Of a DNA stretch of 64,000 nucleotides, positions 1,014 through 60,415 are shown one piece after another. The notes beneath the pieces were generated by a model. It was not told where the DNA came from. It did no database searches and saw nothing but the letters and a program-made list of their open reading frames with translations. A program made the position numbers and the translations under genes. This DNA comes from Neorhizobium galegae (GTDB lineage Bacteria; Pseudomonadota; Alphaproteobacteria; Rhizobiales; Rhizobiaceae): positions 62,001 through 126,000 of the forward strand of contig NZ_JAGIPH010000006.1 in NCBI RefSeq assembly GCF_017877135.1. Direction: 5' to 3'. The first letter of the stretch is position 1; every line of letters starts with the position of its first letter.

Positions 1014-2819
1014 CTAGGAGGATTTGCGCGACGCGATATAGGCGCGCCAGCCGCCAAGCGCCGTCACCTCCTGCGCACCTTGAATGGCATAGGGTTCGCA
1101 GAGGAAGCCGGACACCTGGCTGCCATCCTCCAGCGTCACCTTGCCGATGCCAAGCGGCGCCGGAATGTTCTGCACGAAGCGCCCGAAGGCGGCGGGCGTC
1201 ACTTTCCAGACCTCGACCTCGAGCCCTTGCCCCTTAAAACCGGGGTCGCGGATGAGGCCGGGCTTCGGCGGCGTGGTGTTGGGCAGCACGTAAAGCCGGT
1301 AATCCCCGGAGGTGCGGCAGGTTTTGAACAGCGTGCCGCCGGGCCCGGTCAGTTCGTGGTTGAGCGGCATGCCCGTCAGATGCGCGCCGACCACCATGAT
1401 GGTGACGAGGCCGTCATCGGCTGCGGCCACTTTCGAGGCCTCCGGCAGGACTGCCACCTTGTCCTTGCCCATGCCGCAGGAGGCGGCGCGGTGGAGGGCA
1501 TCGGCAAACGGCGCCAGCGCATCGTCGGAAAAGGAGGGACCGAAAAGGGTCACGCCGCTTGGCAGGCCATCCGCGCCAAAACCGCCGGGAACGGCAATGG
1601 CCGCATAGCCGAAGAGGTTGGCAAAGTTGGTATAACGGCCGAAATGGCTGTTCCTGACGATCGGATCGGCCAGCATCGCCTCCACCGTATAGGTGGTGGG
1701 CGACGTCGGCAGCATCAGCAGGTCGAGCTTTTCCCATTCGGCAAGCGCTTTCTGGCGCAGGTGCCCGAGCCTATACTGTCCCTCGAAGGCATCGACGGCA
1801 TCGTAGGCCTTCGCGCCCTCGATGATCTTGCGCACCGTCGGGTCGACATCATCGGCGTTCGTCCCGAAGAAATCCTTGACCGCCGCCAGACGCTCAGCAA
1901 CCCAGGGGCCATTGTAGAGCAGTTCGGCCGCCTGACGAAACGGCGCATAATCGAAGGGCACGATGGTGGCGCCCAGGGATTTCGCCCGGGCGATTGCCGC
2001 ATCATAGAGCGCCTCGACGGCGACATTGCCGAAGAACTCGCGCTCCGCCCCGTCCAGCACGCCGATGCGCAGGCCGCTTGTCGGAAGTGCAACGGGCGTG
2101 GGTTTGCGGGAATAGGGATCGCCCGCGTCATAGCCCTCCATTACCTTGCGGATGGCTGCGCCATCGCCGACGGTCGCGGCAAAGACGGTCACCACATCGA
2201 CGCTGCGGCAGGCCGGCACGACGCCGACATTCGGCACCAGCCCCGGCGTCGGCTTGATGCCGACAAGATTGTTGAAGGCGGCCGGCACGCGGCCGGAGCC
2301 TGCCGTATCCGTGCCGAGCGCAAAGCTTGCAAGACCCGACGCCACCGCAACGGCCGAGCCGGAGGAAGAGCCGCCCGACACATAGGCCTTGTCGAAGACC
2401 GAGCGCGGCGCGCCATAGGGCGAGCGGGTGCCGTTGAGGCCCGTTGCGAACTGGTCGAGATTGGTCTTGCCGATCACGAGGGCGCCCGCGGCTCTCAGGC
2501 GCGCCACGACGGTCGCATCCTGTTGTGCCGCGTAGGCAAAAGCCGGGCAGGCCGCCGTCGTCGGCAGGCCCGCCACATCGATATTGTCCTTTACCGCAAA
2601 CGGAATACCCCAAAGCGGCAGGCTGTTTGGTTGCGGGTGGGAGACGAGCAGATCGCACGCTGCGCCACGCAGATCCTCATCCGGCGTCTCGGTGATGAAC
2701 ACGGCCGGATCGTCCGAGGCCTTGCGGCGGGCAATCACCTCTTCCACGAGATCGAGCGGAGACAATCCTTCGGCATAAAGCGCCTTCAGCGCAGCAAGAT
2801 CGAGAATGGCGGGGATCAT
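1014..2819 (-). CDS. atzF: Allophanate hydrolase (active-site complete)
   Basis: This 601-residue protein should hydrolyse allophanate (N-carboxyurea) to ammonia and CO2, the last step of urea-carboxylase, biuret and cyanurate breakdown. The N-terminal amidase-signature domain has Lys77 (FAVKDN), cis-Ser151 (GGSSSGS) and nucleophile Ser175 (DTAGSGR). The 74- and 24-residue spacings match Lys91/Ser165/Ser189 of Pseudomonas AtzF. The C-terminal AtzF domain (about 480-601, including GDYRLY and WRAYIAS) is complete. The start at 2819 is chosen because GGAGG lies 7 bases upstream; a longer frame to 2936 has no such site. A sigma-54-type promoter and an ATTGCATACAAT palindrome precede it. It stands alone, with no urea carboxylase next to it. 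A second, altered copy lies at 29620. Confidence 0.93.
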   Translation of the reverse strand: MIPAILDLAALKALYAEGLSPLDLVEEVIARRKASDDPAVFITETPDEDLRGAACDLLVSHPQPNSLPLWGIPFAVKDNIDVAGLPTTAACPAFAYAAQQDATVVARLRAAGALVIGKTNLDQFATGLNGTRSPYGAPRSVFDKAYVSGGSSSGSAVAVASGLASFALGTDTAGSGRVPAAFNNLVGIKPTPGLVPNVGVVPACRSVDVVTVFAATVGDGAAIRKVMEGYDAGDPYSRKPTPVALPTSGLRIGVLDGAEREFFGNVAVEALYDAAIARAKSLGATIVPFDYAPFRQAAELLYNGPWVAERLAAVKDFFGTNADDVDPTVRKIIEGAKAYDAVDAFEGQYRLGHLRQKALAEWEKLDLLMLPTSPTTYTVEAMLADPIVRNSHFGRYTNFANLFGYAAIAVPGGFGADGLPSGVTLFGPSFSDDALAPFADALHRAASCGMGKDKVAVLPEASKVAAADDGLVTIMVVGAHLTGMPLNHELTGPGGTLFKTCRTSGDYRLYVLPNTTPPKPGLIRDPGFKGQGLEVEVWKVTPAAFGRFVQNIPAPLGIGKVTLEDGSQVSGFLCEPYAIQGAQEVTALGGWRAYIASRKSS

Positions 2820-29619: not shown

Positions 29620-31353
29620 ATGCGTTTAGCCGTCCGGTCGTCGTATTTTGCCGTGAGCCAAGTCGTTGCCGGGTTTTACGATTCGCTGGAGGCGTTGCGG
29701 GACCGTTCCGTCTTCATCTCGCTGAAGAAGCGCGAAATGGCGCTTGCCGAAGCACAAAGCCTCGAAGACGGCGATGGCAGCAGCAAGCCGCTCTATGGCA
29801 TGCTGTTTGCCGTCAAGGACAATATCGACGTCGCCGGCATGCCGACGACGGCCGGCTGTTCCGCCTTCTCCTATGCGGCCAAGCGCTCGGCAACCGTGGT
29901 CGAACGGCTGGAGGCGGCCGGCGCCATTCTCGTCGGCAAGACGAACATGGACCAATTCGCCACCGGGCTCGTCGGTGTGCGCTCGCCCTTCGGCATTCCC
30001 CAGAATGCGCTGCGGGCCGACCTCATTCCGGGCGGTTCAAGCTCCGGCTCGGCGGTCGCCGTGGCACGCGGTTACGTCGATTTTGCGCTGGGAACGGACG
30101 CGGCGGGCGCTGGGCGCGTGCCGGCGGGCATGAATGGCATCGTCGGGCTGAAGCCCACGCTTGGCCTTTTGCCATCGACAGGCGTCGTGCCCGCCTGTCG
30201 GACGCTCGAAAGCATCTCCGTCTTTGCCCGCGACGTGGATCTGGCCTTTCAGGTGATGAGCGTCTGCGCCGGCTTCGACCCGCAGGACCCCTTCTCCAAG
30301 CGCCTGCCGGAGCCGTCCATCGGCGCGGTGCCGCCGCGCCCGCGCATCGGCGTGCCGATCACCGCGCAGCGGCAGTTTTTTGGCGATGAGGCCTCGGAGA
30401 AGGCTTATGAGGCGGATCTTGAAAGCCTGAAGGGTCTGGGCGCGGAGATTGTCGAGATCGATTTCGAGCCGTTTCATGCCGCAGCCCGCCTGCTCTACGA
30501 AGGCCCCTGGCTTGCCGAACGCTATGTGGCGATCAAGGACCTGATCGAGCAGAACCCTTCAGCGCTGCTGCCGGTCACCTTGAGCATCATCAGCCAGGCG
30601 CGCAATCTCGGCGCCATCGAAGCCTTTGAGGCCTTCTACCAGCTGGCAAATCTCAAGCGCCACAGCGAACTGGTGCTGGAGGGGCTCGATTGCCTGGCTG
30701 TGCCGACCATTCCGCGCTTCTATACCATGTCGGATCTTGCCCGCGAGCCGGTGGTGTTCAATTCCAACCTCGGCGTCTACACCAACTTCGTCAACCTTCT
30801 GGATCTGGCGGCGATCACCGTGCCGGTCGGCATGCGCGAGGACAACCTGCCCTCCAGCCTCACCTTCATCGGACCGGCCGGAAGCGACGGGGCGCTGGCC
30901 GCCCTGGCCCGCATGGCCGGCGCCCATCAGCGTCCCGCCCATCCACCGCGCGCCGTGCGTGGCCGCATCGAGATTGCCATCTTCGGCCCCCTCCTCTCCG
31001 GCCTGCCGCGCAATGCCGAACTGAAGGCTATGGGCGCGAATTTTCTGCGCGCGACGCGCACCCGAGCCGACTACCGGCTGTTTGCCATTCCCGGAACCGT
31101 GCCGCCGCGGCCCGGCCTGCTGCCGGTTGCGCCGGGGCAAGGGTTTGGGATCGAGGCCGAAGTCTGGTCGCTCGAGCCCGCGGCCTTCGGGGCCTTCTGC
31201 GCCAATCTGCCAAGACCCTGCACCATGGGCACCGTGGCATTGGCCGATGGCACGGAAGCCAAGGGCTGCCTTGTCGATGCCGCCGCCGTCGAAGCGGCAA
31301 CCGACATCAGCGAGCATGGCAGCTGGCGCGCCTATCTGTCCGCCCGCCGATAG
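29620..31353 (+). CDS. AtzF-like protein lacking the catalytic serine
   Basis: This is a 577-residue paralogue of the allophanate hydrolase at 1014-2819, with both the amidase and C-terminal AtzF domains (DYRLFAIPG, then WRAYLSARR). Lys66 (FAVKDN) and cis-Ser140 (GGSSSGS) are conserved. The nucleophile position, 24 residues on, is Ala164 (DAAGAGR, GCT at 30109-30111) instead of Ser. The protein is therefore predicted to lack amidase activity unless it uses another residue. It may be a regulatory or structural pseudoenzyme, or keep only the C-terminal activity. It is convergent with the GntR gene, 18 bases away, at the end of the biuret-type locus. No frame damage is seen. Confidence 0.88.
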   Translation: MRLAVRSSYFAVSQVVAGFYDSLEALRDRSVFISLKKREMALAEAQSLEDGDGSSKPLYGMLFAVKDNIDVAGMPTTAGCSAFSYAAKRSATVVERLEAAGAILVGKTNMDQFATGLVGVRSPFGIPQNALRADLIPGGSSSGSAVAVARGYVDFALGTDAAGAGRVPAGMNGIVGLKPTLGLLPSTGVVPACRTLESISVFARDVDLAFQVMSVCAGFDPQDPFSKRLPEPSIGAVPPRPRIGVPITAQRQFFGDEASEKAYEADLESLKGLGAEIVEIDFEPFHAAARLLYEGPWLAERYVAIKDLIEQNPSALLPVTLSIISQARNLGAIEAFEAFYQLANLKRHSELVLEGLDCLAVPTIPRFYTMSDLAREPVVFNSNLGVYTNFVNLLDLAAITVPVGMREDNLPSSLTFIGPAGSDGALAALARMAGAHQRPAHPPRAVRGRIEIAIFGPLLSGLPRNAELKAMGANFLRATRTRADYRLFAIPGTVPPRPGLLPVAPGQGFGIEAEVWSLEPAAFGAFCANLPRPCTMGTVALADGTEAKGCLVDAAAVEAATDISEHGSWRAYLSARR

Positions 31354-31371
31354 TCCCCACCCACCGCGCCG

Positions 31372-32022
31372 TCAGCCGCCGATCAGCCTGTGATAGGCAT
31401 CCTCCACCTTGGTGATATGCTGGCGCATCATCTCTTCGGCCTGCGCCTGATTGCCGCGCAGGATGGCCTCGGCGATCAGCCCGTGCTCGGCATGCGAGCG
31501 GGCAAGGCGCCCGAGTGTCGAGAACTGCGCACGGCGAAACGGCTGCAGGCGCTGGCGCGTCGAATGGGTGATCTCATCGAGATAGGGATTGTGGCTGCCG
31601 CGATAGATGGCACTGTGGAACCGCTCATTGGCATGGATATAAGCGACGCGATCGCCGGCCGAGACAATCAGGGCCATTTCGCCATGCATCACATCCAGTT
31701 GGTCGCGTTCGGCGGCCGTCATGCGCTGCGCACTCAAGCCGGCACAGAGCGCTTCCAGATGCCCCATCAGCTCGAACATGCCGGCAAGCTTCTCGTCATC
31801 GGGCCTTGCCACCACGGTGCGGGTATGCGGCCGCTGTTCCACAAGGCCGCTTGCCGCCAGAAGCTTCAGCGCCTCGCGCACCGGCGTGCGTGACACGGCA
31901 AATTCCGCCGCAAGCTGCGTTTCATCGAGCACGGTTCCGGGGGCAAGCTCGCTGGTGATGATCCGCTCGGCCAGCTGCCGGCGGATATCCTCGCTCGATG
32001 TGCGCGGTGTCTTTTCTAGCAC
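31372..32022 (-). CDS. GntR-family regulator, FCD type
   Basis: This 216-residue protein has an N-terminal GntR winged helix (LAAEFAVSRTPVREALKLLA, about residues 37-56) and an all-helical FCD ligand domain (NERFHSAIYRGSHNPYLDE and a C-terminal HITKVEDA). The start is GTG. It is the last gene of the BMP/biuret-type operon or separately transcribed from the 113-base gap. It is the natural candidate to bind the ATTGCATACAA sites at 2926 and 39968, with a pathway intermediate as ligand. Confidence 0.87.
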   Translation of the reverse strand: MLEKTPRTSSEDIRRQLAERIITSELAPGTVLDETQLAAEFAVSRTPVREALKLLAASGLVEQRPHTRTVVARPDDEKLAGMFELMGHLEALCAGLSAQRMTAAERDQLDVMHGEMALIVSAGDRVAYIHANERFHSAIYRGSHNPYLDEITHSTRQRLQPFRRAQFSTLGRLARSHAEHGLIAEAILRGNQAQAEEMMRQHITKVEDAYHRLIGG

Positions 32023-32135
32023 GGCCTGCTCACTATCCCCGTCATGTCCTGTCTTCTCTCGTCCTTGCGCTTGTGCCGGATTCGCGCGCGCAATGCAGCG
32101 GAAAAGCGGGACATCATGCCGATATCAATCCGGCA

Positions 32136-32513
32136 TCACGCGGGCATCATGCTGACATGCGCCGCCGCTACCTTCCAGCCGTGCGGCGTGCGCACCCAGG
32201 TCTGCATCTGCCGCCCGATCGCCCCTGGAAAATCCGGCCGGTGAAACAGCGTGGAGGCGGTGGCGAAATCCCGCCCGTAGGTGGTGATCACCGTGCGCTC
32301 CAGCTTTCGCGTGAACGGCGCCTGCACGGCGCGAAACCCCTTCACCTCCTCAAATCCGTGCTGCACTTCGGACACCCCATAGCGCACCGTCACGGGGCTA
32401 TCGAGAAACAGCGACAGCAGCGTCTCGTTGTCATTGGCGAGAAGCGCCGTCTCGTACCGGGCAAAGATCTCCTCTACCTCCGCCCGTGTTTCGGGATGGT
32501 TGATCTCCATCAT
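32136..32513 (-). CDS. AtzH-like protein (DUF3225, SnoaL/NTF2 fold)
   Basis: This 125-residue protein has the NTF2-like pattern: an N-terminal helix FARYETALLANDNETLLSLF, RYGVSEVQHGFEEVKGFR, then a strand ending in VRTPHGWKVAAAHVSMM. This matches the DUF3225 family of AtzH. In Pseudomonas ADP, AtzH is an amidohydrolase that prevents dead-end carboxylated intermediates in cyanurate breakdown. Its place in an operon with biuret-hydrolase-like genes supports the same job here. Its start overlaps the preceding stop (TGATG). Confidence 0.75.
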   Translation of the reverse strand: MMEINHPETRAEVEEIFARYETALLANDNETLLSLFLDSPVTVRYGVSEVQHGFEEVKGFRAVQAPFTRKLERTVITTYGRDFATASTLFHRPDFPGAIGRQMQTWVRTPHGWKVAAAHVSMMPA

Positions 32514-33292
32514 CAGGCCTTCCTGCTGTTCATCATGCGTGATTTCAATTCGGTGAGAAACGGAATGTTTTCAAACTGGTCCGGGCGCACCCGGTCCCAG
32601 TCGACACCTGGCGGACGCGGCTGGCGGTTGCCGGTGACGATCAGTTCGCCTTCCGTCGCCACCAGGTCGAGCGGGGAATCATGGCTTTCGATCACCACGT
32701 CTTTGGCCTCCACCAGCTGCACCGAATGCACGGTGGTTGCGAGCGGCGTCTCATCGCCGATAATGCCCATCTCGCGAAAGATGGCCGTTTCCAGATCGGC
32801 AAAGCCCGCCCCCTTGCCGGTGCGTCCGCCCTCGCGCGACACGGCAACGGAGCCAACGACGCAGAAATCCAGCGGCTCGATCTCCTCAAAGCCGATCCGC
32901 TCGCCATGCTCGACAAAGCCTTGCGACACCGCAGCCAATTCGAAGGAAATGCCCTTTTCCGTCAGCTTTTGCGGATCGAGCCGCAGATAGGGGAATTCCC
33001 GGGTGAGATAGGGCACCGGCGCATAGACCGTCTTGCCTTCATAGAGCGCGCGCAGCCGGATCGGGATCTGCGGCGCATCCGGATTGGTTTTCACCGTGCG
33101 CGCCGCCCGCCATGCCGGTGTCTGCGACAGGAGATAGGCGGCGCGATCGGCGCCGACGAAATTCGGGATCATGCTCCAGGCGGGGCCGATGGCGACGCCC
33201 CTTTCTTCAAGTGCGGCCCAGATGCGGTTGCGCACACGGTCTTTTCCCGTATTGCGTCCGGCCCATCGGCCGCGGCCTGCGACATCAGGCAT
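32513..33292 (-). CDS. 5-formyltetrahydrofolate cyclo-ligase-like (MTHFSD-type) protein
   Basis: This 259-residue protein has the 5-FCL fold with the motif [14 protein letters not shown], as in MTHFSD-type relatives, instead of the GYGGGYYDR of true 5-FCL. Early segments such as [16 protein letters not shown] and a basic N-terminus are also family-like. Its reaction is not established. It overlaps the hydrolase gene upstream by 8 bases and the AtzH-like gene downstream by 1, so it belongs to the nitrogen-compound pathway rather than to folate salvage. Confidence 0.75.
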
Positions 33293-33980
33293 GGATCGGC
33301 GCCTCTGCAAGGGCGGCCTCAAGTGCCACGGAGGGGGCAGCCCAGCCGACGATGCCGCCCTGCGCCACCATCATCTCGATGGCCGCCTGCTTGAAGGCGG
33401 GGAAATAGCTTTCCGTGCCATCTTCGATGAGCAGGCATTCATAGCCGCGATCATTGGCCTCGCGCATGGAAGTCTGCACGCAGACCTCGGTGGTGACGCC
33501 GGTGAAGAGCAGATGCGTGATGCCCTTGTTGTCGAGGATGGACTGGATGTCGGTGCCAAAGAACATGCCCTTGCCGGGCTTGTCGATGACCACTTCACCG
33601 GCCACCGGCTTTAAGGCCTCGATGATCTGGTTGCCCGGTTCTCCGCGCACCAGAAGCCGGCCCATCGATCCCGTCTCGCCGATTTTCAGCGGTGCGTTCC
33701 CCCGCGCGATCTTGGAGGGCGGGCAATCGGAAAGATCCGGCAGATGCGCCTCGCGCGTATGGATGACCGGCCAGCGCTTGCGGCGAAAGAGTTCAAGCAG
33801 CTTTGCAATGGTGGGCACGATCGCCTCCAGCCGCTGAACGTCATTGCCCAGCGCATCGCCAAAGCCGCCCTTCTCGATGAAATCGCGCTGCATGTCGATG
33901 ACGACAAGGGCTGTCCGGCCGGGAATGAACGGATAGGGGTAGGGCCGTGCGGGAACGGGGATCGTCGTCGGCGTGGTCAT
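33285..33980 (-). CDS. Isochorismatase-family amidohydrolase, BiuH/triuret-hydrolase-like
   Basis: This 231-residue cysteine hydrolase has the triad Asp29 (VVIDMQ), Lys134 (DKPGKGMF) and Cys167 (GVTTEVCV). The sequence following the Cys ([17 protein letters not shown]) is like BiuH. It is clearly a paralogue of the BiuH-like protein at 35532 but differs in the substrate loop ([20 protein letters not shown]) and lacks the N-terminal extension. Triuret hydrolase (TrtA) is a known BiuH relative and a good candidate. Other short ureido compounds are possible. Confidence 0.8.
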
Positions 33981-33993
33981 GATCGGTCTGCCC

Positions 33994-35535
33994 TCAATGT
34001 CCGGCCATGTGCTGGCCAATCGTGTTGCGGTCCGTCGCTTCGGTTGCGGCGATATAGGTGATCGTGCCGCCGGACATGACCGCGACCCGGTCTGCCAGTT
34101 CAAGGATTTCGTCGAGATCCTCCGAGACCAGCAGCACGGCCGCCCCGCGGTTGCGCGCTTCCATGATCTGGCTGCGGATATCGGCGACGGAGGCGAAATC
34201 GAGCCCGAAACAGGGATTGGCGACGATCAGCACATCGACATCGCCCGACAGTTCGCGCGCCAGAACCGCGCGCTGCACATTGCCGCCCGAGAGCGTTTCG
34301 ATCGGCGCATCCGGCGAGGTAGTTTTCACCCGGTAGCGGGCAATCAGGTCCTCGGCCTTGGCGCGCATCGGCGCTTTCGACATCCACCAGCCAAGGCTTG
34401 CGATTGGCGGCTTGTCGAAGGAGCGGAAGGCAATGTTTTCCGCCACGCTCATGCGTGGCACCGTGGCGTTCTTCAACGGCTCTTCGGGCAGGCCGAAGAC
34501 GCGAAACCGGTCGAAATTGCCGCGCTTGGGCGTAAACACCTCGCCGCGAATGGTCATCTCGCCATCGGTGAGCGGCCGCTGGCCGGCCAGCGCCTCCACC
34601 AGCGCGCTCTGCCCGTTGCCCGAGACGCCGGCGACGCCGACGATCTCACCGCCGCGGATCTTGAGGTTGACCCCCTGGATGGCGGGAAGCCCCGCATCGT
34701 CTTCGGCGCAGAGACCCGCAAGCTCCAGCACCATCGGCTGCTCGGGCAGAGCAGCGCGCGTGGCGCGCTCGCGCACCTGCGTGTCGCCGATCATCATGCG
34801 GCTCATCTCTTCGACGCTTGCCGTCTTGGCATCCCCCTCCCCCGTCAGGCGTCCGCGCCGGAGCACGGAGAAGCGGTCGCAGAAACTCTTCACCTCGCGG
34901 AATTTGTGGGAAATCATCAGCACGGTGATCTCGCCGCGGTCGCACATGCCGTGGAGAAGGCCGAGCATCTCGTCGGCCTCGCCCGGCGTCAGCACCGAGG
35001 TCGGCTCGTCGAGGATCATGAAGCGCTGGTCGAGATAGAGCAGTTTTAAAATTTCGAGCTTCTGCTTTTCACCGGCAGAGAGCGCGGAAACCTGCGCATC
35101 CAGCGGCACGCGGAACGGCATGGTTTCCATGAAGGCATCGAGCGCCCGGCGCTCCTTCGCCCAGTTGATGACGGAGGGAGTATCGGCGCGGGAAATGACG
35201 AGATTTTCCGCAGCCGTCAGGCAGGGCACAAGCGTAAAATGCTGATAGACCATGCCGATGCCATGGGCGCGCGCATCGCGCGGCGAGCGGATGGAAATCG
35301 CCTTGCCATCCAGTGTCACCTGCCCCTTGTCGGGCGAATAAAAGCCCATGATGCATTTGACGAGCGTCGACTTGCCGGCACCGTTTTCACCGAGCAGCGC
35401 GTGGAAGGAACCGGCCGCCACATCGATGGAGACGTCGCCGAGTGCCGTAAACGCGCCAAAGGTCTTCGTCATGCCATGGGCCGAGAGCGACGGCGCCATT
35501 TTGGCGGAGGGGGTTTCGAGAGGCAGTGCGCTCAT
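33994..35535 (-). CDS. ABC transporter ATP-binding protein, tandem ATPase (BMP/nucleoside type)
   Basis: This 513-residue protein carries two ATPase halves. The first has Walker [10 protein letters not shown] and Walker [11 protein letters not shown]. The second has the relaxed loop GVSGNGQSA and signature [16 protein letters not shown]. This is the RbsA/BMP-family plan. The start at 35535 is set by the ATGA overlap with the BiuH-like gene. It energises the two permeases at 36275 and 37204. Confidence 0.9.
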
Positions 35536-36266
35536 CCGCGTTCCTCCGGCAGCGCCGCGATGAAATCGGCCGAATTGGAGACGGCGCCGAACACGCCGCC
35601 CTGCATCTTGATCATGTCGATGGCAGCAAGATGGTTTTCGCGCTTGGTGGCAGCACAGCAATCCTCCAGCAACAGGCATTCATAGCCGCGGTCATTGGCA
35701 TCGCGCATGGTGGTGTGGACGCAGACATCGGTGGTTACACCGGTCAGCACGATATTGCGGATGCGCTTCGTCTGCAGCACCAGCTCAAGGTCGGTGGCCA
35801 GAAACGAGCCCTTGCCGGGCTTGTCGATGATCGCCTCGCCCGGTTCCGGCTGCAGTTCGGGAATGATTTCCCAGCCCGGTTCGCCGCGCACCAGAATGCG
35901 CCCGCACGGCCCCTGATCGCCGATGCCGGCGCCGATGCGCTGCGAGCGCCAGCGCTTGTTGGCGGGAAGATCCGACAGATCCGGCTTGTGGCCTTCCCGC
36001 GTGTGGATGATCGGATAGCCTTTTGCGCGAAGGGCAGTCAGCACGCGGGAAATCGGCTCGATCGGCGCCCGCGTCAGCGAGATGTCATAGCCCATGCTGT
36101 CGACATAGCCACCCGGCGCACAGAAATCGATCTGCATGTCGATGACGATCAGCGCCGTGTTGTGCGGCCCCCAGTCGCCGTCGAAGGGCCAGGGATAGGG
36201 GTCGGCCGCCAGCGTTTTTCCACCCGGCACCAGGGCCTTGGCAATGCGTTCGTCGAGCGTGTTCAT
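35532..36266 (-). CDS. biuH: Biuret hydrolase (isochorismatase family)
   Basis: This 244-residue cysteine hydrolase is predicted to convert biuret to allophanate and ammonia. The triad Asp43 (VIDMQIDF), Lys149 (DKPGKGSF) and Cys182 (TTDVCVHT) has the same spacings (106 and 33 residues) as Asp36/Lys142/Cys175 of Rhizobium leguminosarum BiuH. Characteristic segments such as [29 protein letters not shown] and [12 protein letters not shown] also agree. The ATG at 36266 has GAGG nearby; a GTG 12 bases earlier is less likely. Lying between permease and ATPase genes, it is co-expressed with the importer. Confidence 0.85.
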
Positions 36267-36274
36267 GGGGGACC

Positions 36275-37207
36275 TCACTTGGTAATCGAAAGTTCGCCCG
36301 GAGCCTCACGGGCGGCCGCCTTCGAGCGGGCGGACGCGACCATGATGAAGAGCGTGAGGATGTAGGGAGCGGCGTTGAAGAAATAATAGCCTTGCGAAAT
36401 GCCGACCGATTGCAGCGAGGGCCCTAGCGCGCCGGCGGCCCCGAAGAGAAGGGCTGCCAGAATGCAGCGCAGCGGCCCCCAGCGGGCAAAGATAACGAGA
36501 GCCACCGCCATCAGCCCCTGGCCGGACGACAGGCCCTGGTTCCATGAGCCCGGATAATAGAGCGACAGGAAGGCGCCGCCGATGCCGGCCAGAAAGCCGC
36601 CGACCGCCGTTGCGATGAAGCGCACCAGATCGACGGAGACACCCATGGCCTTGGCGGCGGCGGCGCTGTCGCCGGTCATGCGGATGATGAGGCCAAAGCG
36701 CGTGTTGCGAAATGCCCAGGCCATGAAAAGCGCAAGGCCGACGCCGACGAAGAACAGCGGGTTTACCTCCAGCGCCTGGGCAAGGCGCGGATCGCCCGTC
36801 CAGTCGCCGAGATGAATGGCCTCGAGCCGCGGCGCCTGCGGCTGGATATACGGTTTCCCGAAAAAGAAGGCGAGGCCGGTGCCGAAGCTCATGAAGGCAA
36901 TGCCGACGGCGATATCGTTGACCTTCGGCAGCTTGCAGATGAAGCCGTGCAGCGCGCCGAGCACGAGGCCGGCGCAGCCGGCAAAGAGCACGCCGGTCCA
37001 CGGGCTTCCGGTGAGATAGGAGGCGGCATAGGCCACCATGGCGCCGAGCACCAGGCTTCCCTCCAGCCCCAGATTGATGCGGCCCGACTTTTCCGTCAGA
37101 CATTCGCCGAGCGCCACGAACATGAAGGGCGTGGAGACGCGGATGGCGCCACCGAGCATGGCAATGAGGGCGGTCACCATTGCGCCGTCGCTGATGGTGG
37201 CATTCAT
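36275..37207 (-). CDS. ABC transporter permease (BMP-associated, second)
   Basis: This 310-residue membrane protein starts [18 protein letters not shown]. It contains the BPD_transp_2 motif [21 protein letters not shown] and a later [15 protein letters not shown] loop. The start is fixed by the ATGA overlap with the first permease. The pair forms the heterodimeric channel of a nucleoside-type importer. Substrate is inferred from the neighbours to be a ureido compound. Confidence 0.9.
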
Positions 37208-38328
37208 GTGCGGTCCTCCGCGCTTTTCGGCTGGAAAAAGGGAATGCGGCCGTAAAAGGTCTCGCTGGTCAGAAGCACCACGAAAATGAGGCCCTGCAGC
37301 ACCAGAACCGTGGCATCCGGCATGCCCATGCGCCGCTGGATGACGCCGCCCGCCGCCGCAAGCGCCCCGAAGAGAACCGCAACCGGCACCACCGCGAGCG
37401 GCACCTGGCGGGCGAGAAAGGCAACCAGAATGCCGGTGAAGCCATAGCCCGCGACCAGCGAGGCATTCGCCTGCCCATGAACCGCGGCGACCTCGTAGAA
37501 GCCGGCAAGACCGGCACAGCCGCCCGCCAGCATGCAGCAGATGACGATAAGTTTCCCGACCGGCAACCCCTGCGCCAGGGCGGCGCGCGCATTGCCGCCG
37601 GTGACGCGGGCGGCAAAACCGAAGGTGGTGCGCGTCATCGCCACATGCAGGATGACAGCCAGCAGAAGGCCGGCGGCCAGCCCCCAATGCACCTGCGTGC
37701 CCGGAATGGCACCGATGCGATAGGCATCGCCGATCGGCATGGTAGAGGGCTTGTTGGCCGAGGCCGGATCGCGCAGCGCCCCTTCCACGAAGAAATTCAT
37801 CGTGGCGATGGCGATATAGGAGAGGAGCAGCGAGGAAATGGTTTCGTTGACGCCGCGATAATAGCGCAGCCAGCCGGCAAAGCCGATCCAGACCCCGCCT
37901 GCAAGAATGGCGGCAAGCGCCATCACCGGCAGGGTGAGGAAAGGCGCCACGCCGGCGGAGACCAGCGGAATGGCGATGGCGGCGGCGGCAAGCCCGCCCA
38001 GCACCAGCGCCCCCTCGCCGCCGATCATGGTGAGCCCGATGCGGGCGGGAATGGCAAAGGCAAGGCCCGTGAGGATCAGCGGTGCGGCGCGCTGCAGCGA
38101 GTTCTGGAACGAGAAGCTCGATCCGAAACCGCCAACCCAGATCAGCTGAAAAAACATCAGCGGCGATTTGCCAAGGCATAGCAGGAAAATCGAAAACAGC
38201 GCCGCAGACACGATGAGCGCCGCCAGCGGTATGAAGATGGATTCGGCAAGTTTGAGCGTGCCGACGCTCGGACGGCGCTTCACCGCCGCCACCGAAAGAG
38301 GTTGAACCGTCATGTCTGCCACTTGCAT
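37204..38328 (-). CDS. ABC transporter permease (BMP-associated, first)
   Basis: This protein of about 374 residues has around nine hydrophobic segments and the motifs GLTMIGGEGALVLGGLAAA and FAARVTGGNARAALAQGLPV. The ATG at 38328 follows GAGAGGAG closely; an ATG at 38313 is an alternative. A 339-base gap with intergenic repeats separates it from the binding-protein gene. Confidence 0.88.
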   Translation of the reverse strand: MQVADMTVQPLSVAAVKRRPSVGTLKLAESIFIPLAALIVSAALFSIFLLCLGKSPLMFFQLIWVGGFGSSFSFQNSLQRAAPLILTGLAFAIPARIGLTMIGGEGALVLGGLAAAAIAIPLVSAGVAPFLTLPVMALAAILAGGVWIGFAGWLRYYRGVNETISSLLLSYIAIATMNFFVEGALRDPASANKPSTMPIGDAYRIGAIPGTQVHWGLAAGLLLAVILHVAMTRTTFGFAARVTGGNARAALAQGLPVGKLIVICCMLAGGCAGLAGFYEVAAVHGQANASLVAGYGFTGILVAFLARQVPLAVVPVAVLFGALAAAGGVIQRRMGMPDATVLVLQGLIFVVLLTSETFYGRIPFFQPKSAEDRT

Positions 38329-38498
38329 TCTCCTCTCACCGGAGATCTGCCCGGATGCTGGGCGAACCTGTCTTCCCGAAGGCCATTTCTGCTGGAGCGG
38401 CCGATGCCGCCGGGTGAACCTTTTGACCGGACGGATGCAGGCGACCATCGGCCGGAGGCGACGCTCCTATCCGTTGAACGAGGGTGCGTGCGTCGAAA

Positions 38499-38635
38499 CC
38501 CCCTCTGGCTTGCCAGCCATCTCCCCCACAAGGGGGGAGAAGACCTGCCGCGCCGTGTGCCCAGATGGGGCAGTCCCGTGTCGGCTGGGTTAGCCCCTCC
38601 CCCTTGTGGGGAGGGGTTGGGGAGGGGTGCTCCAC
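38499..38635. repeat. Rhizobial intergenic repeats between BMP and permease genes
   Basis: One unit CCCCCTCTGGCTTGCCAGCC...CCCCACAAGGGGGG (38499-38540) matches the repeat at 9935. A second type, CCCTCCCCCTTGTGGGGAGGGG followed by TTGGGGAGGGG (38593-38635), matches copies near 58590 and 60545. Each forms a GC-rich hairpin. The rest of the 38329-38667 gap shows no gene. Confidence 0.8.
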
Positions 38636-38667
38636 CGATAGTCGCCCGTGCCCGTCTCCAGGCGGCC

Positions 38668-39774
38668 TCAGGTGATCGAACCCTGCACGCCTTCCAGCAG
38701 CCAGTTCATGCCGTCGAGATAAGGGTCGTAATTGTCATAGGTCTTGTCGACCACGACCTTGCCCTGGTTGTCCTTCAGCGTGCCCTTGTAGATCGGCGCG
38801 CCACCTTTGAGGGCGGCGACGGCCGCATCGGCTGCCTTCTTGGCCGCATCGGTTGCGCCGGCGCCGTAAGGCGTGGAGCGCAGCATATCCTTGTCATAGC
38901 CGCCGACGAGGAAGTTCGGCAGGGTCTTCTTGGCGCCGATATCGGCAGCGAACGACTTGTAGATCGTCTCCCACTTGTATTCGGCGCCGGTGATGAAGCC
39001 CTTCGGCGCAAGCGGGGCCTGCGAGGCATTGTGGCCGAGCGATTTTACGCCGCGGGCTTCCGCCGTCTCGATCACCACTTTCGGGCTGTCGACATGGCAG
39101 GTGATGACATCGCAGCCGGCATCGACCAGCGCGTTTGCCGCTTCCGCCTCGCGCACCGGCAGCGACCAGTCGCCGGTGAAGATGACGCGGACAGTAGCGG
39201 CCGGATTGACCGAACGGGCGCCGAGCAGCACGGAGTTGATGTTGGACAGCACCGACGGAATAGGCTTTGCCGCGACAAAGCCGATCTTGCCCGTCGGCGA
39301 CGACAGGCCGGCCGCCACGCCGTTCACATAATGCGCCTGGTTGAGATAGGGAAAGTAGGAGCCGGCATTCTTCGGGTCCTTGTCCTTCGACCAGAGCGGC
39401 GCGGCATGGCGGAATTCGACGGCCGGATATTTCTTCGCCAGATCGACGACGAAGGGATTATAATAGCCGAAGGAGGTGGCGAGGATAAGGTTTGCGCCGT
39501 CGAGATTGATCATGGATTCGATCGACTTGGCGACCGCATCCGTTTCCGGCACGTTTTCCTCTTCGATGACGGTGACGCCCGACACCTGCTTCAGCGCGGC
39601 GGCGGCCACGGCATGAGCCTGGTTCCAGCCGAAATCATCACGCGGGCCGACATAGACGATGCCGACGGTCACGGCGCCCGTGGCGCTGGCAGATCGCATC
39701 GGCAGGGTAGTTGCAGCGGCACCGGCAAGGCCGGCCTTGATCAGCGCGCGGCGGGACAGTTCGTATCGAGACAT
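38668..39774 (-). CDS. BMP-family ABC transporter substrate-binding protein
   Basis: This 368-residue protein has a twin-arginine-type signal (MSRYELSRRALIKAG), then a BMP/PnrA-type domain: VGIVYVGPRDDFGWNQAH, the LILATSFGYYNP segment and GSYFPYLNQAHYVNGVAAG. BMP proteins usually bind nucleosides or related heterocycles. In this operon the ligand may be a ureido compound or a precursor. GGGGAG six bases before the ATG supports the start. It is the first gene of the nine-gene operon and is preceded by a sigma-54 promoter. Confidence 0.9.
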   Translation of the reverse strand: MSRYELSRRALIKAGLAGAAATTLPMRSASATGAVTVGIVYVGPRDDFGWNQAHAVAAAALKQVSGVTVIEEENVPETDAVAKSIESMINLDGANLILATSFGYYNPFVVDLAKKYPAVEFRHAAPLWSKDKDPKNAGSYFPYLNQAHYVNGVAAGLSSPTGKIGFVAAKPIPSVLSNINSVLLGARSVNPAATVRVIFTGDWSLPVREAEAANALVDAGCDVITCHVDSPKVVIETAEARGVKSLGHNASQAPLAPKGFITGAEYKWETIYKSFAADIGAKKTLPNFLVGGYDKDMLRSTPYGAGATDAAKKAADAAVAALKGGAPIYKGTLKDNQGKVVVDKTYDNYDPYLDGMNWLLEGVQGSIT

Positions 39775-39827
39775 TGGCACTCCCCTTGTTTTTGCTTCAA
39801 CCCCGTCCGGGTCTCCGCAAAGAACGA

Positions 39828-39844
39828 TGCAAAGGGCGTGCCAC
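39828..39844 (-). promoter_or_regulatory. Sigma-54 promoter of the BMP operon
   Basis: On the minus strand the sequence reads GTGGCACGCCCTTTGCA, containing TGGCACG-N4-TTGCA, an exact RpoN core with correct spacing. Transcription would start near 39817, about 43 bases before the BMP gene. This places the locus under nitrogen control, in keeping with its enzymes. Confidence 0.75.
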
Positions 39845-56324: not shown

Positions 56325-56912
56325 ATGCGAGCCCCCGACCTCACCATTCTTGTGATCGATGAAAATGCCGTGCGCGCGGCCATCATCGAGGAAGGCTTGC
56401 GCGAGGCGGGGCATCTGCGCGTCACCGTCGCCCACGAGATGACCGGCATTGCCCGCACCATCGAGACGCTGTCGCCCGATGTGATCATCATCGATATCGA
56501 AAACCCCAATCGCGACATGATGGAACACCTGTTCCAGCTGACGCGTACCGTCTCGCGCCCGATCGCCATGTTCGTCGATCGCTCCGATACGGCCTCCATC
56601 GAGGCGGCGGTGGATGCGGGCGTGTCTGCCTATATCGTCGACGGGCTGCGCAAGGAGCGGGTGAAGCCCATCCTCGACATGGCCGTCAGCCGTTTCAACG
56701 CCTTCAGCCGCCTGCAGCGGGAACTGGCCGAAGCGCGCAGCCAGCTTGGCGAGCGCAAGGTGATCGAGCGCGCCAAGGGTATCCTGATGAAGATGCGTGG
56801 CCTGTCGGAAGAAGAAGCATTTGCGCTTCTGCGCCAGACGGCGATGAACGAGAAGAAGAAACTGGCCGACATCGCCCAGAGCGTCGTGACGGCAGCGGGG
56901 TTGCTGCTGTGA
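56325..56912 (+). CDS. nasT: Nitrate-responsive antiterminator NasT (ANTAR)
   Basis: This 195-residue protein has a receiver-like domain (ILVIDENAVRAAIIEEGL, then IIIDIENP) and a C-terminal ANTAR RNA-binding domain (ERKVIERAKGILMKMRGLSE, AFALLRQTAM). NasT binds two-hairpin leaders and prevents termination when nitrate or nitrite releases it from NasS. The nasS gene overlaps it (GTGA). A matching leader lies at 58949-59082. Confidence 0.93.
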   Translation: MRAPDLTILVIDENAVRAAIIEEGLREAGHLRVTVAHEMTGIARTIETLSPDVIIIDIENPNRDMMEHLFQLTRTVSRPIAMFVDRSDTASIEAAVDAGVSAYIVDGLRKERVKPILDMAVSRFNAFSRLQRELAEARSQLGERKVIERAKGILMKMRGLSEEEAFALLRQTAMNEKKKLADIAQSVVTAAGLLL

Positions 56913-58919: not shown

Positions 58920-58936
58920 CTGGCACGGCCTTTGCA
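58920..58936 (+). promoter_or_regulatory. Sigma-54 promoter of the nrt-nir operon
   Basis: CTGGCACGGCCTTTGCA fits the RpoN consensus YTGGCACGrNNNTTGCW at every defined base. Transcription would start near 58947 and give a leader of about 170 bases before nrtA. Confidence 0.9.
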
Positions 58937-59007: not shown

Positions 59008-59082
59008 ACGTCGCTTGGTTTTTGCAACCCATGGGATTTTGCCTGTGGCGCGCATCATACCGGGCGGCGTTTTTTTGTTTTT
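59008..59082 (+). terminator. Leader terminator (attenuator) of the nrt operon
   Basis: ACGTCGC (59008-59014) pairs with GCGGCGT (59064-59070), and the run TTTTTTTGTTTTT follows at once. The loop holds a smaller hairpin (GGTT...AACC). It lies 35 bases before the nrtA start. Together with the upstream hairpins it makes a switch opened by NasT. Confidence 0.7.
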
Positions 59083-59116
59083 CCGCATCTCCGTCACCGA
59101 AAAAGGGGAACAGCAT

Positions 59117-60415
59117 ATGACGAAGACGACAGGCAGAGCGTTGAGCCGCCGCGGAATTTTGAAGACGACCGCAGCCGCAGGCTTGATCGGCGCGGTCCGC
59201 ATGGCCTTTCCCTCAGGCGCCTTTGCCGCAGGAACCGGCCCGGAAGTGAAGGGCGTGAAGCTTGGCTTCATCGCGCTCACCGATGCCGCACCCTTGATCA
59301 TCGCGCAGGAGAAGGGCCTGTTTGCCAAGCATGGCATGCCGGACGTCGAAGTGCTGAAGCAGGCCTCCTGGGGGGCGACGCGCGACAATCTCGTGCTCGG
59401 CGGCGCTGCCAACGGCATCGATGGCGCCCATATCCTGACGCCGCTGCCCTATCTGATGTCGACCGGCAAGGTGACGCAAAACAATGTCGCCGTGCCGATG
59501 TCGATCCTCGCCCGCCTCAACCTCGACAGCCAGGGCATTTCGGTTGCGAAGGAATATGCATCGACCGGCGTGCAGCTGGATGCTTCCAAGCTGAAGGCGG
59601 CCTTTGCCGCCAAGAAGGCCGCCGGCAACGAAATCAAGGTCGCGATGACCTTCCCGGGCGGCACGCATGATCTGTGGATCCGCTACTGGCTCGCCGCCGG
59701 CGGCATCGATCCGGACAAGGACGTCTCCACCATCGTCGTGCCGCCGCCGCAGATGGTGGCGAACATGAAGGTCGGCAACATGGATGCCTTCTGTGTGGGC
59801 GAGCCGTGGAACGAGCAACTGGTCAACCAGGGCATCGGCTTTACCGCCTGTACCACCGGCGAGCTGTGGAAGGGCCATCCGGAAAAGGCGCTGGGGCTTC
59901 GCTCCGAATGGATCGAGAAGAACCCGAATGCCGCCCGCGCCCTGATGATGGCCGTGATGGAAGCCCAGATCTGGGCCGACAGCATGGACAACAAGGAAGA
60001 GATGGCCGCCATTTTGGGCAAGCGCCAGTGGTTCAACGTGCCGCCGAAGGATGTGGCCGGGCGCCTGAAGGGCACCATCAATTACGGCAATGACCGTGTG
60101 GTGGAAAAGTCCGGTCTCGAGATGAAGTTCTGGAAGGACCACGCCTCCTATCCCTTCAAGAGCCACGATGCCTGGTTCCTCACCGAAAACATCCGCTGGG
60201 GCAAGTTTGCGCCAGACACGGATATCAAGGCGCTGGTCGACAAGGTGAACCGCGAGGACATCTGGCGCGCTGCCGCCAAGGATCTCGGTGTCGCTGCTGC
60301 CGACATCCCGGCCAGTTCCTCGCGCGGAAAAGAGACCTTCTTCGACGGCAAGGTTTTCGATCCGGACAATCCGAAAGCCTATCTCGACAGCCTGACAATC
60401 AAGGCAAGCGCCTGA
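59117..60415 (+). CDS. nrtA: Nitrate ABC transporter substrate-binding protein
   Basis: This 432-residue protein has a twin-arginine signal (LSRRGILKTTAAAGL, cleavage near GAFAAG) and the NrtA segments GFIALTDAAPLIIAQEKGLF, NGIDGAHILTPLPYLMSTG and IRYWLAAGGIDPDKDVSTIV. It binds nitrate or nitrite in the periplasm. GGGGAAC precedes the ATG. It is the first gene after the attenuator. Confidence 0.93.
   Translation: MTKTTGRALSRRGILKTTAAAGLIGAVRMAFPSGAFAAGTGPEVKGVKLGFIALTDAAPLIIAQEKGLFAKHGMPDVEVLKQASWGATRDNLVLGGAANGIDGAHILTPLPYLMSTGKVTQNNVAVPMSILARLNLDSQGISVAKEYASTGVQLDASKLKAAFAAKKAAGNEIKVAMTFPGGTHDLWIRYWLAAGGIDPDKDVSTIVVPPPQMVANMKVGNMDAFCVGEPWNEQLVNQGIGFTACTTGELWKGHPEKALGLRSEWIEKNPNAARALMMAVMEAQIWADSMDNKEEMAAILGKRQWFNVPPKDVAGRLKGTINYGNDRVVEKSGLEMKFWKDHASYPFKSHDAWFLTENIRWGKFAPDTDIKALVDKVNREDIWRAAAKDLGVAAADIPASSSRGKETFFDGKVFDPDNPKAYLDSLTIKASA

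Follow-up and report, generated by a model that had tools for sequence, protein, structure and literature searches.

The locus at positions 29620–39844 of a 64,000-nucleotide (nt) stretch of Neorhizobium galegae DNA (contig NZ_JAGIPH010000006.1; the whole stretch is called the window here) appears to encode the uptake and breakdown of triuret and biuret, both impurities of urea fertilisers, and to include an AtzH-family protein that would act as a carboxybiuret decarboxylase. We put the probability of this joint reading at roughly 0.6, a figure on the generous side of the product of its parts. The triuret/biuret pathway is known already, and the new part is the AtzH-family protein of operons that lack AtzE, placed at the carboxybiuret step.

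Hydrolases of the triuret and biuret pathway

The two hydrolases that the initial annotation had grouped as "BiuH-family", both of the isochorismatase fold, proved to be one BiuH and one TrtA, each with its own diagnostic residues. The biuH gene (35532–36266, minus strand), for biuret hydrolase, scores 410.6 bits on the NCBIfam model NF050097 (cutoff 370) and 407 bits against Rhizobium leguminosarum BiuH (6azo), while the product of trtA (33285–33980, minus strand), the triuret hydrolase, stays below the BiuH cutoff (246.9 vs 370) and among solved chains matches TrtA (6xix, 317 bits) better than BiuH (206 bits). At the positions that were mutated between the TrtA and BiuH types (PMC7948467; TrtA numbering), the window TrtA carries the TrtA letters F35, N41, E160, Y187 and I205, and the window BiuH the BiuH letters Y35, Y41, D160, T187 and V205; the Asp24-Lys129-Cys162 triad and Gln202 are present in both. 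The window TrtA departs from TrtA at Met134, where TrtA has Ala, a position at which Ala134Ser is tolerated (PMC7948467). The atzF gene (29620–31353, plus strand), which encodes allophanate hydrolase and is convergent with the operon, scores 703 bits on the curated model TIGR02713 (cutoff 511), with an amidase domain and a C-terminal AH_C domain. A second allophanate hydrolase gene lies elsewhere in the window (1014–2819, minus strand; TIGR02713 781 bits, cutoff 511), its product being 47% identical to that of the locus atzF.

Judging from homology, together with the diagnostic residues for the first two enzymes, TrtA would cut triuret to carboxybiuret, BiuH would cut biuret to allophanate and AtzF would finish allophanate, all three activities being published for relatives. 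We consider the assignment to triuret/biuret scavenging highly probable. The initial annotation had proposed an uptake and breakdown system for these compounds built on BiuH, TrtA and AtzF, and had regarded the combination as undescribed. The first part stands, supported by the model scores, the diagnostic residues and a conserved RpoN site; the second fails, because the triuret route is in print, together with operons of TrtA, BiuH and AtzF that enable growth on triuret (PMC7948467), as is a BMP-type "nucleoside" importer beside trtA, biuH, trtB and atzF in ammonia-oxidising bacteria (PMC12625717). An undescribed pathway is thus ruled out by these two papers.

The AtzH-family protein and the carboxybiuret step

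The atzH-family gene (32136–32513, minus strand) encodes a protein with PF11533 that scores 155 bits on NF033625 (cutoff 135). Its structure model has a mean predicted local distance difference test (pLDDT) score of 96.8 and matches both 6bjt and 2owp with a template-modelling (TM) score of 0.97 by query length. Nine residues line the docked 1,3-dicarboxyurea in the AtzH of Pseudomonas ADP (PMC6219798), and eight of the nine are unchanged in the window protein, the ninth, Arg66, being replaced by Gln; position 53 is also Gln. Compared with an AtzH of the 1,3-dicarboxyurea type, the window protein thus has the family, the fold and Tyr22/Arg46, and lacks Leu53, Arg66 and an AtzE partner. No AtzE over the curated cutoff was found in the window's genome, where the best match reaches 283 bits against 461, and for this reason the window AtzH cannot clear the product of AtzE; the idea in the initial annotation that AtzH clears a later intermediate did not hold in this respect. 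An AtzE encoded elsewhere in the genome, which we considered both for the window and for the exceptional locus L022 discussed below, was set aside, as the curated model found none. Among solved structures, 6bjt and 2rcd are Leu53/Arg66 by sequence and 2owp is Gln53/Cys66.

We compared the window with loci drawn from relatives of its MTHFSD-like protein (the best 80 of 188), from the trtA loci of a Rhizobiaceae sample, from seven plasmid loci, and from samples taken at order, class and phylum level, in which trtA or atzH loci were sought (100 stretches, with 40 places from the AtzH search taken in); 40 further betaproteobacterial loci stayed outside the comparison. The proportions below are not natural frequencies, because the set was enriched by design for MTHFSD-like and AtzH loci. 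Duplicates were removed on the basis of the AtzH core sequence (leaving 110 of 120 places) or of the trtA DNA (149 loci). In the 149 distinct loci where trtA and biuH lie close to each other, a small cupin gene without AtzH is present 54 times and AtzH without a cupin 84 times; the two are never combined, and 11 loci lack both. AtzE is present in 46 of the 84 AtzH loci, missing in 38, and never found without AtzH. Since cupin and AtzH never occur together and all AtzE loci have AtzH, the two behave as if they were alternatives for one step. AtzE was counted over the full length compared at each locus; restricted to 5 kb around trtA the figures are 44 with and 40 without, the two loci concerned (L186 and L220) having AtzE more than 5 kb from trtA and keeping Arg66. 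The AtzE calls tested score 673–710 bits on the curated model (3/3; cutoff 461), a short AtzG-like frame lies between trtA and atzE in all seven loci inspected, and none of 32 AtzE-less genomes has an AtzE over the curated cutoff, with 4/4 controls positive. In the Rhizobiaceae sample, 49 of 247 genomes have a trtA match, namely the window's own, 11 of the AtzH type and 37 of the cupin type (38 cupin loci).

Residue 66 follows the presence of AtzE closely. In the first locus set Arg66 was found in 32/32 trtA operons with AtzE and was lost in nearly all without, and in loci gathered after the idea had been recorded it was found in 19/19 with AtzE and 0/11 without; combined, for distinct AtzH of trtA operons, the counts are 51/51 and 1/38 (among the 38 is L216, in which atzH and trtA belong to one operon but are over 5 kb apart). 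A further three AtzE-less operons, on plasmids, have Cys (Cupriavidus), Thr (Ideonella) and Cys (Pseudomonas luteola) at this position, and AtzH proteins encoded without trtA within 5 kb have Arg66 in 21/21 cases, L216 being set aside. AtzE operons share 43 alignment columns with a conservation of 95% or more; of these, position 66 differs in eight of nine AtzE-less lineages and position 53 in seven of nine, the latter changing from Leu to Gln every time. Tyr22, Arg46, Arg63 and Arg73 are invariant in all 110 distinct AtzH sequences, Tyr22/Arg46 being the pair thought to be catalytic. The residues that replace Arg66 are varied (Q, A, S, Y, F, L, C and T), which argues for several origins of its loss. 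Our main tree (89 rows), built from five other operon proteins, requires a minimum of 6 changes in AtzE presence and 7 in Arg66; independent pairs agree in 5/5 cases on supported branches (6 pairs on all branches), giving a sign-test p of 0.0625, the lowest value that five pairs allow.

The published fate of carboxybiuret is either decay to biuret, its half-life being about 20 min, or processing by TrtB or AtzE (PMC7948467). We propose that in AtzE operons AtzH would take one carboxyl group from 1,3-dicarboxyurea, yielding allophanate and keeping Arg66, and that in AtzE-less operons such as that of the window the absence of Arg66, with Gln53 the usual residue, would mark a switch to carboxybiuret, which AtzH would decarboxylate to the biuret that feeds BiuH. 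The chemistry would agree with this: 1,3-dicarboxyurea has a carboxylate at both ends, while carboxybiuret has one carboxylate and an amide at the other end, so an Arg facing the second carboxylate would be unneeded and a Gln could pair with the amide. The AtzE-less AtzH seems to have taken on another role, its changes recurring at the same active-site positions across several lineages; given the pathway, we consider its decarboxylation of carboxybiuret moderately likely. If true, each trtA-biuH operon would use a cupin, or AtzGE with an Arg66-bearing AtzH, or an Arg66-less AtzH alone; AtzH positions 53 and 66 would tell the carboxybiuret route from sequence; the naming of genes in these operons as "oxalurate catabolism protein HpxZ" would be corrected; and the lineages would offer several natural experiments on the way in which substrate choice shifts in a small NTF2-fold pocket if the preceding enzyme is missing.

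Several observations weigh against carboxybiuret decarboxylation by AtzH. Arg66Ala and Arg66Lys are not among the significantly impaired AtzH variants (PMC6219798), which makes Arg66 dispensable in the assay used, and as carboxybiuret decays unaided no enzyme is strictly needed (PMC7948467), as the 11 of 149 loci with neither cupin nor AtzH may also indicate. The independence of the changes is modest, as without three long rows 4/4 pairs agree (p 0.125) and the short AtzH tree gives a single supported pair. The AtzE-less status of the three plasmid loci rests on about 18 kb each, and both L218 and the P. luteola plasmid keep Leu53. Finally, L022 has no AtzE over the cutoff in its genome, yet has Leu53 and Arg66; on the AtzH tree the five rows closest to it are of the AtzE type without exception, though lacking branch support, and we infer that its AtzH is a swapped-in gene.

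Some of these points would equally fit an AtzH that is a relic, in which Arg66 drifted under relaxed selection after the loss of AtzGE while carboxybiuret decays alone and the rest of the pathway runs as published. The roughly 20-min spontaneous decarboxylation, the variety of residues at position 66, as expected under drift, and the 11 loci without either gene all favour such a relic. However, a relic would not keep Tyr22, Arg46, Arg63 and Arg73 invariant, position 53 changes alike in seven of nine lineages, and AtzH is retained in 38 AtzE-less trtA-biuH loci, so we consider it unlikely. It is very unlikely, in our view, that the AtzH-family protein acts on another intermediate, for example around the AtzF step, on the side of dicarboxylated ammonia or allophanate, or on a compound of the oxalurate type, as the database name HpxZ suggests. 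The NF033625 model that the window protein passes is named "oxalurate catabolism protein HpxZ", plasmid records use hpxZ, and AtzH works next to AtzF in AtzE operons; but AtzH of the AtzE route passes in the same family, its effect is reported not to run via AtzF activation (PMC6219798), and the mutual exclusion with cupin and the link between residue 66 and AtzE point to the carboxybiuret node.

Decarboxylation of carboxybiuret by AtzH would also bear on the identity of TrtB. We somewhat favour that TrtB is itself an AtzH-family protein of which the window holds a relative, on the basis of hpxZ-named genes next to or near trtA in beta- and gammaproteobacterial plasmid operons; alternatively, TrtB may be a cupin or something else that AtzH has replaced. 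The abstract of PMC12625717 also favours the first reading, as it lists "trtA, biuH, and atzH" where the text has trtB and atzF, though this may be a slip. Searching with the Herbaspirillum TrtA gave no match above 71% identity in 299 genomes, and the searches made of the open-licence literature, a scope that excludes the paper defining TrtB, brought up no report of the AtzE-less AtzH type.

The importer and the MTHFSD-like protein

The importer's BMP-type substrate-binding protein (38668–39774, minus strand; PF02608) has AtzT (6pi5, 168 bits) as its nearest solved chain. AtzT holds guanine, and at the contact positions taken from PMC6834077 the window protein reads WSFHSNWHD where AtzT reads YSFTENWNN: it retains Ser97, Phe98 and the aromatic sandwich (with Trp in place of Tyr45), while Glu165, Asn218 and Asn220 are replaced by Ser, His and Asp. 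We rejected an AtzT-type guanine-binding protein on account of these three lost guanine contacts, and a "B6 importer" on account of a score far under the cutoff of the curated binding-protein model (37 vs 400). A BMP importer of at least 45% identity is the usual partner of the pathway, found within the stretch examined at 137 of the 149 trtA-biuH loci, and at the same identity threshold the pocket reads YSFQQNWHD in 53/53 cupin operons and WSFH[S/T]NWHD in 63/73 AtzH operons. The ligand is likely, from these residues, to be planar and other than guanine, and we infer that it is triuret or biuret. The ABC (ATP-binding cassette) importer would accordingly take up a small planar ureide, and with its conserved non-guanine pocket it is a candidate for triuret/biuret uptake.

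The MTHFSD-like gene (32513–33292, minus strand, start uncertain; PF01812) encodes a protein with the fold of 5-formyltetrahydrofolate cyclo-ligase (5-FCL; model pLDDT 91.4), the best solved match being the 5-FCL 2jcb at 18% identity. A role as a folate enzyme, that is, as 5-FCL itself, was rejected at 19.4 bits on MTHFS_bact TIGR02727 (cutoff 84.9). We take the family to be the one labelled COG0212, presumably with a thiamin link. For a plant homologue the description is "not a 5-FCL enzyme; involved in thiamine salvage" (PMC3223725). The gene is present in 68/84 AtzH-type loci and 0/54 cupin-type loci, and we considered first that it stands in for the cupin; this was set back, as it is missing in 16/84 AtzH-type loci and occurs without trtA. 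It lies beside a BMP importer with the same pocket, with no trtA or biuH near, in 4/4 loci compared, and its relatives are also encoded after importers whose binding proteins belong to another class (two tested). In five loci (L086, L088, L091, L092 and L011) a LysR gene accompanies the MTHFSD-like gene and a BMP importer with 63–69% identity to the window's, without trtA or biuH. Elsewhere in the window's own genome (L177, contig C15, 9517–14315), an NMT1/THI5-type ABC importer is bordered by two further MTHFSD-like genes, whose products are 31 and 33% identical to the window's. The MTHFSD-like protein is thus not specific to ureide breakdown, occurring also with BMP importers without trtA or biuH and with unrelated importers; it looks importer-linked rather than triuret-linked, and we would place it as an importer-linked accessory with no assigned reaction.

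The same observations allow a different account, namely that the importer brings in a larger purine-derived ureide or ring, on which the MTHFSD-like protein performs an ATP-dependent first step, with triuret and biuret as later products. The 4/4 same-pocket importers beside an MTHFSD-like gene and the guanine held by AtzT (PMC6834077) are in keeping with it, as is the lack of any TrtA match at E ≤ 1e-20 in the seven genomes and one plasmid record searched that contain MTHFSD-BMP loci, a search that had no internal positive control. Cupin operons, however, have the importer and never the MTHFSD-like gene, AtzH-type loci do without it in the 16 cases given above, and the AtzT guanine-site residues are replaced in the window protein; import of a larger ureide is in our estimate distinctly improbable. 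Returning to the carboxybiuret decarboxylase, we regard as tentative, at somewhat less than even odds, a fuller version in which AtzH turned decarboxylase several times independently, as a third carboxybiuret route, and the MTHFSD-like protein also reacts on the imported ureide.

Gene layout, transcription signal and named systems

The initial annotation had described nine co-directional genes (the BMP importer, biuH, trtA, MTHFSD-like, atzH-like and gntR) and a convergent atzF, and the gene calls agree with it to within a few codons. In addition to the genes described above, the operon contains two ABC permease genes with BPD_transp_2 domains, permB (37204–38328; the domain search used a longer reading from 38349) and permA (36275–37207; longer reading from 37228), the gene of an ABC ATPase with two nucleotide-binding domains (33994–35535; two stretches of ABC_tran) and a GntR/FCD regulator gene, gntR (31372–32022; PF00392 and PF07729), all on the minus strand. 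That the genes are "mostly overlapping" is roughly right: permB/permA, biuH/ATPase, trtA/MTHFSD-like and MTHFSD-like/atzH overlap (the MTHFSD-like start being uncertain), and four pairs are separated by gaps, of 8 nt (permA/biuH), 13 nt (ATPase/trtA), 339 nt (BMP/permB) and 113 nt (atzH/gntR). The long BMP/permB gap contains perfect inverted arms of 13 nt, CCCCACAAGGGGG and CCCCCTTGTGGGG, 62 nt apart and G-rich (38524–38611), which look like an intergenic repeat element or a processing or termination signal.

Upstream of the first gene there is, as previously noted, an exact RpoN (sigma-54) -24/-12 core, TGGCACGCCCTTTGC, at 39829–39843 on the minus strand, its 5' end lying 69 nt ahead of the BMP start codon. 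Exact cores number two in the window including this one, and matches with at most two mismatches are no commoner than in shuffled sequence (96 vs 86.5 ± 9.3), so the core alone is weak evidence. For 126 related trtA operons, however, the upstream stretch is complete, and in 83 of them a core with no more than one mismatch lies in the 350 nt before the BMP gene, at a median distance of 79 nt, compared to 0/126 for equally long stretches inside the BMP gene; this conservation makes the site more than chance. Sigma-54 has a general role in nitrogen control, and it would, from the conserved site, probably switch the operon on. The other exact core (58921–58935, plus strand) precedes, by about 110 nt, the gene of an NMT1_2-type binding protein (59045–60415), which is followed by a nitrate ABC permease gene (TIGR01183, 304 bits, cutoff 209) and preceded by an ANTAR response regulator gene (56325–56912) and a gene for a second NMT1_2 protein, the whole being a nitrate-uptake locus. 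A nitrate ABC permease gene also adjoins the trt operon on a Rhizobium indicum plasmid.

Related operons show further variation in gene content. The cyanuric acid hydrolase gene atzD, which the window lacks, lies between biuH and the ATPase gene in L008, L015, L018 and others, all close relatives, and many relatives of the operon have a formamidase gene, one of whose products passes the curated model (551 bits, cutoff 406). An Enterobacter hormaechei IncR plasmid (L013) has a complete atzF-importer-formamidase-biuH-trtA-gntR arrangement without cupin or AtzH; similar plasmid records come from Enterobacter, Klebsiella and Citrobacter, and an identical 65.8% TrtA match recurs in many among the records listed.

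Compared with named systems, the window shares TrtA, BiuH and AtzF, by residues and models, with the triuret pathway of Herbaspirillum sp. BH-1 and R. leguminosarum 3841 (TrtA, TrtB, BiuH and AtzF; PMC7948467), and differs from it in the AtzH-family and MTHFSD-like genes that follow trtA. The clusters of nitrifying bacteria (PMC12625717) collocate the same importer type and enzymes as the window and list gntR, but name trtB (absent in comammox), and the passages cited of that paper mention no MTHFSD-like protein. The cupin-type rhizobial operons, for example those on plasmids of Agrobacterium sp. RAC06 and Rhizobium indicum, have the same importer-biuH-ATPase-trtA order, but a small cupin gene after trtA, no AtzH, and a BMP protein about 50% identical to the window's with a different pocket. 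With the atzDGEHF cyanuric acid operon of Pseudomonas sp. ADP (PMC6219798) the window shares the AtzH family, the eight pocket residues and AtzF, whereas it lacks AtzD, AtzG and AtzE and its AtzH differs at residues 53 and 66. Finally, the window's MTHFSD-like protein shares the 5-FCL fold with COG0212/5-FCL-like proteins but scores below the curated 5-FCL model's cutoff, and it stands in a ureide operon while its relatives occur with several importer classes.

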